Shown here: piece after piece, positions 43,656-45,710 of the stretch | How positions within the stretch are numbered: the stretch's first letter is position 1 | Layout: every line of letters starts with the position of its first letter | Assembly (NCBI RefSeq): GCF_039962255.1 | Contig: NZ_JAMPKY010000003.1 | Location: 62,001 to 126,000, forward strand | Reading direction: 5' to 3' | Length of the DNA: 64,000 nucleotides | Origin: Leptolyngbya subtilissima AS-A7 | GTDB lineage: Bacteria > Cyanobacteriota > Cyanobacteriia > Phormidesmidales > Phormidesmidaceae | Position numbers and translations under genes: made by a program | Notes under the pieces: generated by a model | The model's input: the letters and a program-made list of their open reading frames with translations, nothing else | Database searches by the model: none | What the model was told of the DNA's origin: nothing

Positions 43656-44063
43656 TCAATCTTGAATGTAGGGTTCGCCAGCGCTGAGAGCAGCTTCGGC
43701 CCGCATAAATTCGCGCCCTAAGTAGGCCGCATGATCGAGATAGGTGATAGGGCAGGGACGCTCTGGATCTTCAAAAATAGAAATACAGAGTTCTTTGGCT
43801 GTGTGACCGCTATAAGTGCAGGTGGGCACACGCTCTACAGGGCCACGCACGGGTAGGGGTTTGCCAGTAGCGGGGTCACAGGCCAACCCTTTGTCGTTAA
43901 TGATATTGGCAAAGTGCTTAGCGCAAATCAGCCCCAGCTCTACGTCTAAATAGATTAAAAAATAGCCCGCTGGGTCCAGCTCAATGTAGCGCTTCGAGAG
44001 CTGGTCATCGAGGGCCTGGCGCTGGGCTTTGTCGACAGGCTGGGTGCTAGAAGGTAGAGTCAT
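43656..44063 (-). CDS. DUF4346 domain protein
   Basis: A 135-residue protein. YIELDPAGYFLIYLDVELGL followed by ICAKHFANIINDKGLACDP matches the cyanobacterial DUF4346 domain, also found at the end of tetrahydrofolate-methyltransferase-like proteins. A histidine-cysteine rich pattern (ICAKHF, PTCTYSGHTAKELCISIFE) is striking and could bind metal, which is inference. It is 96 bases downstream of the cyclase gene on the same strand. Confidence 0.8.
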   Translation of the reverse strand: MTLPSSTQPVDKAQRQALDDQLSKRYIELDPAGYFLIYLDVELGLICAKHFANIINDKGLACDPATGKPLPVRGPVERVPTCTYSGHTAKELCISIFEDPERPCPITYLDHAAYLGREFMRAEAALSAGEPYIQD

Positions 44064-44159: not shown

Positions 44160-45710
44160 TCAGCCTTCGAGGCTATAAATCGCTTGAGGAGTGGCTTTGC
44201 CCTTGAGCAGTAGTTCCCCTAAAAACCTACAGCGGTAGTTGGAATCGGACTCAAGTACCTGCCTGGTAGCGGCATCGAGCAAGATTTGATTTTGGCTGGC
44301 CTGACTCATCAGCCGGGCGGCGGTGTTGACTGTATCCCCCAGCACATTAAACTCGCGTCGGCCTCGGGGCTCACCAATCTCTGCCGCAAACACCGGGCCG
44401 TAGGTCAACCCCATGCGGCAGCTAATGGGTAAGGGCAGGCCCAGCCGCATGGGCTGCCGCAACTGGCTCACCAACGTACGAATTGCCAGCAGGGTTTCGG
44501 TGGCCCGTAGGGGAGCCTCGGGATCGGGGGCGAGCACGCCAAAATGAATCAGCAGCTCTGAGCCTACTGAGTGGTAGGTCACCTTTTGCAAAATGCCGCG
44601 CCGCCGTTCTACTGCGCCGTTGATGAGGGCAAAGGCATGGGAGAAGCAGGTGACAATGCCGTCAGTATCGTCGGGATAAGCGGTATCTACTGCCTCTGGC
44701 AAACCCATTAAATTGACAAAGGCCACTGCCGCCGTAGGAAAAGCCGGGGGAATACGGCGAGCGGCAGCGGTATTGACAAGCAACTGGAGCACTGGGCGAG
44801 GCAGATAGCTAGCTAAGGGTTCAACGGTGGCGAGGCTAGCCTGAATTTCACCAATTAGGCCGGGCACGCTGCGGTCAAACAACATTGAGCTGGCTGTGCG
44901 GCGACGGCTTAGAGTGAGGTCGTACTCTCCCAGGGTTTTAGCATTCAGGTCGTCGACCACCAGCCAGCTAGACTCGGAGTTAGGTTCTAGACTCAGGGGG
45001 TGGGCCGCAGGTTGAAGGCAGTCATACCCAGCTTGGCTGAGGCAGACTCGGCCCACTGCCCCGGCCCCTTCGGTCTGCTTAGCCACCAGCACTGGCTGTC
45101 CCAACAGAACGTGAGCTCGGCGTAAAGGGGTACCAATATCTGCCGCTACAAACTGCCCCGGATGAATGCCTAGCCGCATGCGCAACGATAGAGGGCCCTG
45201 AGCGGTTTCAAGGGCAGAAAAATTCTCCATGGCTCGCTGCATTCGCAGACCGGCATAGACGGCCTGCGTTATCTCGGCGTTGTCGCCGCCAGACTGATAG
45301 GTCTCGTGGCGAAACTGCACCAGCATGGCATCGCCGGTAAACTCCAGCAGGTTACCGCCAGCTTTGCTGACCAGCTCTACCATCCGGGCAAAGTAGTCGT
45401 TGATTAAGGTCAATAGAGTCTCGGCCCCAGCTTGCCCTGCCGCCGCACTAGCCGCAAATAGCGGAGTAAACCCAGCTAAATCAGTAAACAATAAGGTGCC
45501 GCGATGCCAGCAATGGCGTATCTGAGGGCTGAGGGGTGGCTGCTGGGCTACATCGCGAGGCAGGTAGTCGATCAAAATATGCTGTAGCGTACGCAGATGA
45601 TCAAACACCTTGACCAGGGTTTGGGCAGAAGGGTCAACCCATAGGGCTGCGTATAGGTCAGCAGGGGCTAGGTCTCGCAGGCTGCGCTCAATGCTATCCA
45701 GTTCTGCCAC
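44160..45710 (-). CDS. class III adenylate/guanylate cyclase with two tandem domains
   Basis: A 516-residue soluble protein. Domain 1 (about 68-235) keeps both metal aspartates, D77 in LLFTDLAGFT and D127 in EFTGDAML, but lacks the transition-state Asn and Arg (L208, Q212 in GQPVLVAKQ). Domain 2 (about 323-490) has lost the metal aspartates (N333, S384) but keeps Asn462 and Arg466 in LGDTVNTAARL and a Lys (K376) where the substrate-choosing Lys lies. One composite site, formed between the domains as in animal membrane cyclases, is therefore likely. ATP or GTP preference cannot be decided. The region between, about 240-320, holds no recognised domain. Confidence 0.85.
   Translation of the reverse strand: MAELDSIERSLRDLAPADLYAALWVDPSAQTLVKVFDHLRTLQHILIDYLPRDVAQQPPLSPQIRHCWHRGTLLFTDLAGFTPLFAASAAAGQAGAETLLTLINDYFARMVELVSKAGGNLLEFTGDAMLVQFRHETYQSGGDNAEITQAVYAGLRMQRAMENFSALETAQGPLSLRMRLGIHPGQFVAADIGTPLRRAHVLLGQPVLVAKQTEGAGAVGRVCLSQAGYDCLQPAAHPLSLEPNSESSWLVVDDLNAKTLGEYDLTLSRRRTASSMLFDRSVPGLIGEIQASLATVEPLASYLPRPVLQLLVNTAAARRIPPAFPTAAVAFVNLMGLPEAVDTAYPDDTDGIVTCFSHAFALINGAVERRRGILQKVTYHSVGSELLIHFGVLAPDPEAPLRATETLLAIRTLVSQLRQPMRLGLPLPISCRMGLTYGPVFAAEIGEPRGRREFNVLGDTVNTAARLMSQASQNQILLDAATRQVLESDSNYRCRFLGELLLKGKATPQAIYSLEG

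Follow-up and report, generated by a model that had tools for sequence, protein, structure and literature searches.

A tandem class III cyclase on the minus strand

The gene described here lies in a window of 64,000 nucleotides, that is the whole stretch of DNA that was analysed, from Leptolyngbya subtilissima AS-A7 (contig NZ_JAMPKY010000003.1, positions 62,001 to 126,000; coordinates below count from the first letter of the window). Positions 44160-45710 comprise exactly one open reading frame on the minus strand, which starts with GTG and encodes a protein of 516 amino acids. Sixteen orthologues from other genomes could be aligned over almost the full length of this protein, and the GTG is found at the same position in 10 of them, which supports the start codon call. 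A Pfam scan revealed two Guanylate_cyc (PF00211) stretches within the frame (genome positions C3:107012-107497 and C3:106169-106573), and the presence of this fold twice, indicated by Pfam, the structural model and fold matching, assigns the protein to class III. Identity with the TOMM kinase/cyclase NCBIfam was rejected, as the score was 25.5 bits versus a cut-off of 705.75. The gene and its parts are as follows.

44160..45710, minus strand, stop codon included: tandem class III nucleotide cyclase, 516 aa (open reading frame, Pfam, orthologue alignment)
45516..45710, minus strand: N-terminal helices, residues 1-65, alignable to the sAC N-terminus from about residue 25 (model, fold alignment)
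45003..45515, minus strand: C1 cyclase domain, residues about 66-236, metal-binding half (Pfam, PDB alignment, model, trees)
44748..45002, minus strand: linker, residues about 237-321, with lower model confidence near 261-280 (model)
44163..44747, minus strand: C2 cyclase domain, residues about 322-516, base and transition-state half (Pfam, PDB alignment, model, trees)

Just downstream on the same strand lies a gene for a DUF4346 protein of the pterin-binding type (PF14251, 135 aa, 43656-44063). A FemAB-like gene (PF04339, 45798-46997, same strand) is located 87 bases upstream of the cyclase gene and may share a transcript with it.

The two domains are predicted to pack on each other

The first-pass annotation had suggested that both domains pair within one chain and had likened the arrangement to the animal transmembrane cyclases (tmACs). 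The AlphaFold model has a mean pLDDT of 90.2 and a pTM of 0.91, values that support the predicted relative placement of the domains, and the predicted packing corresponds to that in human sAC and tmAC. When compared with VIA-align, human sAC structures scored Z 37.2-39.9 across rows, the best being 4clk (Z 39.9, 435 residues, model residues 25-516 on 4clk residues 1-464, rmsd 4.5, 22% identity); since the alignment spans residues 25-516, the C1 and C2 halves are predicted to pair. Ranks 1-24 of a Foldseek search were all human sAC. AC9, with Z 38.0, scored no lower than some of the sAC structures, so the fold alone cannot separate sAC from tmAC, and the cyclase-like Pseudomonas protein 6yii scored 28.1.

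In sequence searches of the PDB, a profile built from 60 members had human sAC as its top match (E 2.3e-28), in a single alignment that begins in C1 and reaches the NxxxR motif in C2. Searching with the single sequence placed two single-domain cyclases (CyaB 3r5g, 2w01) before sAC, which came third; among the first six matches, only sAC aligned across both domains in one stretch. The likeness to tmACs thus holds at the level of fold, where the scores are nearly equal, whereas by sequence the soluble sAC is closer.

One set of catalytic residues is divided between C1 and C2

According to Table 1 of PMC12867704, Asp47 and Asp99 of sAC bind the metals, Lys334 recognizes the base, Arg416 contacts the alpha-phosphate, Asn412 serves product release and Lys144 binds pyrophosphate, while Lys95 and Arg176 bind bicarbonate. 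The proposal that the two domains complement each other to form one active site had been based on D77, D127, L208, Q212, N333, K376, S384, N462 and R466, and each of these residues is indeed present at that number. Alignment with human sAC equates D77 with Asp47, D127 with Asp99, K376 with Lys334, N462 with Asn412 and R466 with Arg416. One refinement is necessary: in the PDB alignments the C1 residue that matches Arg176 of sAC is K211 and not Q212.

Conservation was assessed using the best 80 of 487 confirmed relatives from a collection scan, the 16 orthologues and the query, which together make 97 rows; 86 of these, query included, constitute a nonredundant set with <98% identity, to which the counts below refer.

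45480..45482, minus strand: D77, first metal aspartate (sAC Asp47; alignment; 86/86)
45342..45344, minus strand: E123, pseudo-site, at the bicarbonate-binding Lys95 of sAC (alignment; 86/86)
45330..45332, minus strand: D127, second metal aspartate (sAC Asp99; alignment; 86/86)
45078..45080, minus strand: K211, pseudo-site, at the bicarbonate-binding Arg176 of human sAC (alignment; 86/86)
44712..44714, minus strand: N333, replaces the first C2 metal aspartate; same Asn in human sAC, FVNL (85/86)
44583..44585, minus strand: K376, purine-recognizing lysine (sAC Lys334; alignment; 79/86)
44559..44561, minus strand: S384, replaces the second C2 metal aspartate; Cys in human sAC (84/86)
44346..44348, minus strand: N455, second purine position (sAC Thr405, number counted back from Arg416; 86/86)
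44325..44327, minus strand: N462, transition-state Asn (sAC Asn412; alignment; 86/86)
44313..44315, minus strand: R466, transition-state Arg (sAC Arg416; alignment; 86/86)

R179, at the position of the pyrophosphate-binding Lys144 of sAC, is likewise invariant (86/86). K376 is replaced by Asn in five rows and by His and Asp in one row each. Positions 208 and 212 of C1 vary, with six residue types each in the 86-row set and at least six each in the 97-row set. Invariance of the metal and Asn/Arg residues across the 97 rows while positions 208 and 212 drift indicates that the residue split is more than chance. The composite site, as read from the alignments and conservation rows, carries the two metal aspartates, NxxxR and the purine lysine, and the division of these residues between C1 and C2 is a trait of the whole family. 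The first-pass view of a single site built from complementary halves is thereby supported: the split is conserved, and the model predicts with confidence a packing of the domains like that of human sAC and tmAC.

The collection scan demanded the peptide FTDLAGFT or GLRMQRAM and so favoured D77; among those 80 rows its invariance is in part a product of the search. D77 is also kept in the 16 orthologues and in seven full-length rows from a phylum search, all found without the peptide condition, although many of the 16 orthologues are genes also in the collection scan and one phylum-search row (L173) is the same gene as L024. In these seven rows, D77, D127, E123, K211, N333, N455 and N462 are each present 7/7, R466 6/7 and K376 5/7, the exceptions being L176 and L171 (Asn at 376). 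The most divergent member, L176 (G105:C1, 41% identity), has Tyr at 466, Asn at 376 and a gap at 383, and to judge from these changes may have turned into a non-catalytic binder or dead enzyme. Comparison of the Leptolyngbya gene with three orthologues yielded dN/dS values of 0.148, 0.094 and 0.095.

Distribution and gene neighbourhood

The best 80 of the 487 relatives come from Cyanobacteria, Chloroflexota and one Deltaproteobacteria MAG. Their open frames measure 460-647 aa between stops and end 0-24 residues past the matched end, such that 79 of 80 terminate right after C2; the remaining one (L060) runs off its contig there, and L070 runs off at the other end. Full-length orthologues were detected in 12/26 genomes of the genus, in 3/8 others of the family and in 2/23 others of the class. 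Five of the 14 genus genomes in which no full-length orthologue was found are <90% complete. In one genome (G038) the copy is split into two frames (L177, G038:C1:1309692-1310523) and is perhaps a decaying gene. The gene is therefore dispensable, given the split copy and the 14 of 26 genus genomes in which the orthologue was not found. Among 292 genomes sampled evenly across the phylum, 10 had a match at 1e-60 with up to five candidates scored per genome, and one of these is the broken copy.

The genome of L. subtilissima AS-A7 has 14 Guanylate_cyc matches, two of which belong to the tandem cyclase gene, and 16 matches to cNMP-binding domains, 14 of them over the cut-off. Receivers for a cyclic nucleotide may thus be at hand. 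A cNMP-binding protein is encoded in the flanks of 6/80 relatives.

DUF4346 is found downstream of the cyclase gene in 9/80 loci and FemAB upstream in 8/80, in all cases among the nine nearest relatives (L039-L047). This confinement identifies the arrangement as local synteny, and the two genes were rejected as a functional clue. Using single-linkage clusters, a MinD/ParA-like ATPase was detected in the flanks (up to 6 kb) of 26/80 relatives from both phyla, and in none of L039-L047. Neither a MinD-like nor a cNMP-binding gene adjoins the gene in the window. Within the genus, the MinD-like gene occurs in 12/12 genomes with the cyclase and in 11/14 without it; its occurrence is therefore not tied to that of the cyclase and was rejected as a functional clue. 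Loci with the MinD/ParA-like ATPase include L105:7527-10789, L113, L066 and L062, and most copies inspected contain RGGTGKSN. A small protein is encoded near the MinD-like and cyclase genes in 11 loci, with a weak winged-helix match in L105, and a tail resembling W-x-[ST]-L-[DE] is common to the small proteins of L105 and L113 and a PrsW-like protein of L105. The L. subtilissima genome has a MinD/ParA-like ATPase and its small partner together on another contig (L168:7022-8133).

Bacterial sACs share the division of residues

The existence of bacterial sACs has already been published (PMC6660944). We compiled a set of 19 bacterial sAC loci (L119-L121, L152-L167) with open frames of 1022-1494 aa, except for L158 and L159 with ~400. 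L121, the one that was scanned for domains, has two cyclase domains followed by AAA_16 and TPR. The bacterial sACs share the residue division of the stand-alone cyclase family: Asp is present at the D127 place in 19/19 and at the D77 place in 18/18 readable sequences, and the Lys, Asn and Arg of C2 are each present in 18/18 readable. Neither C2 metal place carries Asp, and the first of them has Asn in 11/19. The two groups differ elsewhere. At the E123 place, the bacterial sACs have Lys in 16/19 and His, Ser or Thr in the others; at the N455 place, Thr in 17/18 readable; and at the K211 place Gly, Ala, Ser, Phe or Cys, never Lys or Arg (n=19). The fixed Glu-Lys pair of the pseudo-site is accordingly found in 0/19 bacterial sACs examined. 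The absence of Lys and Arg at the K211 place in these sequences also indicates that the Arg176 of human sAC is not general among bacterial sACs and that the basic residue is a constant of the stand-alone family's own.

To follow descent, we separated the domains of 18 of the 97 family rows, 16 bacterial sACs (omitting L157, L158 and L159) and human sAC and built two trees from them, one with 78 domains and one with 89 domains that includes 19 single-domain cyclases (L028 represents the L121 gene and was omitted from these outgroups). Supports are given as ultrafast bootstrap/SH-aLRT. The C1 domains of the family grouped with those of sAC at 100/97 in both trees, and the C2 domains with those of sAC at 100/98 (78 domains) and 99/98 (89 domains). 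In the 89-domain tree these groupings stand apart from the 19 single-domain cyclases, and within them the families are separate (family C1 97/99, sAC C1 100/99, family C2 100/100, sAC C2 95/89); the sAC C2 group is weaker in the 78-domain tree (88/64). Our domains are thus placed beside each sAC group and not nested inside it. The exact placement of human sAC is unsure, as its branches are the longest in either tree. Since C1 goes with sAC C1 and C2 with sAC C2, the asymmetric tandem probably predates the split of the two families, and was probably inherited from an ancestor common with sAC. The trees were midpoint-rooted for drawing, and gain of the NTPase by sAC as well as its loss in the stand-alone family both fit.

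A probable sister of sAC with one predicted composite site

From the residues, their conservation and the trees, together with the modelled pairing, we infer that the gene very likely encodes a stand-alone soluble cyclase of a sister family of sAC, with one composite site that likely makes cAMP, a non-catalytic pseudo-site and no activation by bicarbonate. According to the model, the two domains would pair within the chain to form a pseudo-heterodimer. C1 would contribute the metal aspartates D77 and D127, and C2 would provide K376, N455, N462 and R466, yielding one active site whose product would most likely be cAMP. The mirror-image site, without metal ligands and Asn/Arg, would not catalyse.

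In guanylyl cyclases, Glu occupies the position equivalent to K376. At the N455 position, adenylyl cyclases have Thr or Asp and guanylyl cyclases have Cys or Ser, and Asn fits neither pattern. The atypical N455 and the variation at K376 (7/86 rows, and Asn in 2/7 phylum-search rows) leave the substrate uncertain. The same composite site could make cGMP, as the sole product or besides cAMP, and the title of one reference calls a Dictyostelium sAC homologue a guanylyl cyclase. We nevertheless regard this as unlikely, as the adenine-type lysine is kept in 79/86 rows. Loss of catalysis altogether would leave a class III-like protein that regulates by binding a nucleotide, ATP or a different one, as suggested by 6yii, which matches across both domains with Z 28.1 and is titled cyclase-like and ATP-binding, and by L176 with its missing catalytic Arg. 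However, D77, D127, N462 and R466 are present in 86/86 rows, purifying selection is strong and the match to sAC is far better than that to 6yii (Z 39.9 versus 28.1), which makes a dead enzyme quite improbable.

As to origin, the asymmetry of C1 and C2 could have arisen independently in the stand-alone family and in sAC. Asn occupies the first C2 metal place in only 11/19 bacterial sACs, and for tmACs a separate duplication and fusion is assumed (PMC9552081). Against this, both trees group C1 and C2 with their sAC counterparts (ultrafast bootstrap 99-100, SH-aLRT 97-98), and Asp is found at the first C2 metal place in 0/19 bacterial sACs; hence we consider convergence very improbable. The sister-family reading can be extended tentatively: the stand-alone family may represent the core as it was before fusion to the NTPase-TPR region, the split of residues being an older bacterial invention, and the Glu-Lys pseudo-site may answer a signal other than bicarbonate, possibly one linked to the MinD-like ATPase whose gene neighbours that of the cyclase in many relatives. 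This is conceivable, albeit rather doubtful.

In human sAC, bicarbonate is bound at the pseudo-site via Lys95 and Arg176, and the C2 beta2-beta3 loop partly closes this site (PMC4506562). PMC12867704 regards Arg176 as a switch that pairs with either Asp99 or bicarbonate. In the stand-alone family these ligands are absent and Glu123 and Lys211 are present instead, in 86/86 rows, so that the second pocket appears constrained. Bicarbonate is unlikely to bind beside E123, and Glu at the Lys95 place together with Lys at the Arg176 place predicts that there is no bicarbonate activation. That two charges stay fixed in a pocket which has lost its Asn/Arg points to a function in structure or regulation; the first-pass annotation had raised a regulatory pocket as a possibility. 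K211 is perhaps a switch like human Arg176, and would then pair with D127 in the off state. Most non-mammalian animal sACs also deviate at Lys95/Arg176 (PMC12867704). Since none of the 19 bacterial sACs has Arg or Lys at the second of these places, the ligand pair marks mammalian sAC and not the sAC family.

Our literature search found no description of the stand-alone sister family; older work (Roelofs and Van Haastert 2002, Kobayashi 2004) was outside its scope, and an earlier description is possible. A 2014 paper on the structure of human sAC compares its single chain with a homodimeric cyanobacterial enzyme and credits the differences to the fusion from which the mammalian enzyme arose (PMC4506562). 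Our trees suggest instead of a late origin that two bacterial families inherited the asymmetric tandem from their common ancestor. The small stand-alone sister, with the same asymmetry and other residues at the bicarbonate site, lends itself to asking which residues turn the pseudo-site into a sensor.

Comparison with known cyclases

The first-pass annotation considered a soluble bacterial protein with both halves in one chain uncommon. This does not hold, as the same plan is present in human sAC, in 19 bacterial sAC loci and in a family with at least 80 loci. The design is not unprecedented but is the sAC plan; what sets the sister family apart is that it stands alone and carries other residues at the second site.

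Like the sACt form of ADCY10, which consists of C1-C2 only, the Leptolyngbya protein is a soluble single-chain tandem with metal ligands in C1 and base and transition-state residues, including NxxxR, in C2, and is predicted to have one active site and one pseudo-site. The NTPase and TPR region that follows C2 is absent from the open reading frame in the window, as it is from sACt. The sACt form arises by splicing from a gene that also yields a 187 kDa protein (PMC12802110), whereas in Leptolyngbya the gene itself stops after C2. Further differences from mammalian sAC are Glu123 at Lys95, Lys211 at Arg176 and Asn455 at Thr405, at 22% identity. The C1/C2 heterodimer with one active site and one pseudo-site is also common to animal tmACs (Z 38.0 to AC9). 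These have two membrane parts, which are absent here by alignment coverage of the chain: residues 25-516 all match the C1-linker-C2 part of sAC, leaving no room for membrane domains. The homodimeric Spirulina cyclase (PDB 1wc0) has the class III fold in common with the Leptolyngbya protein, but possesses two identical nucleotide sites (PMC4506562). In Leptolyngbya, neither domain carries a full catalytic set, C1 lacking the Asn/Arg and C2 both Asp, and the tandem halves are unequal.
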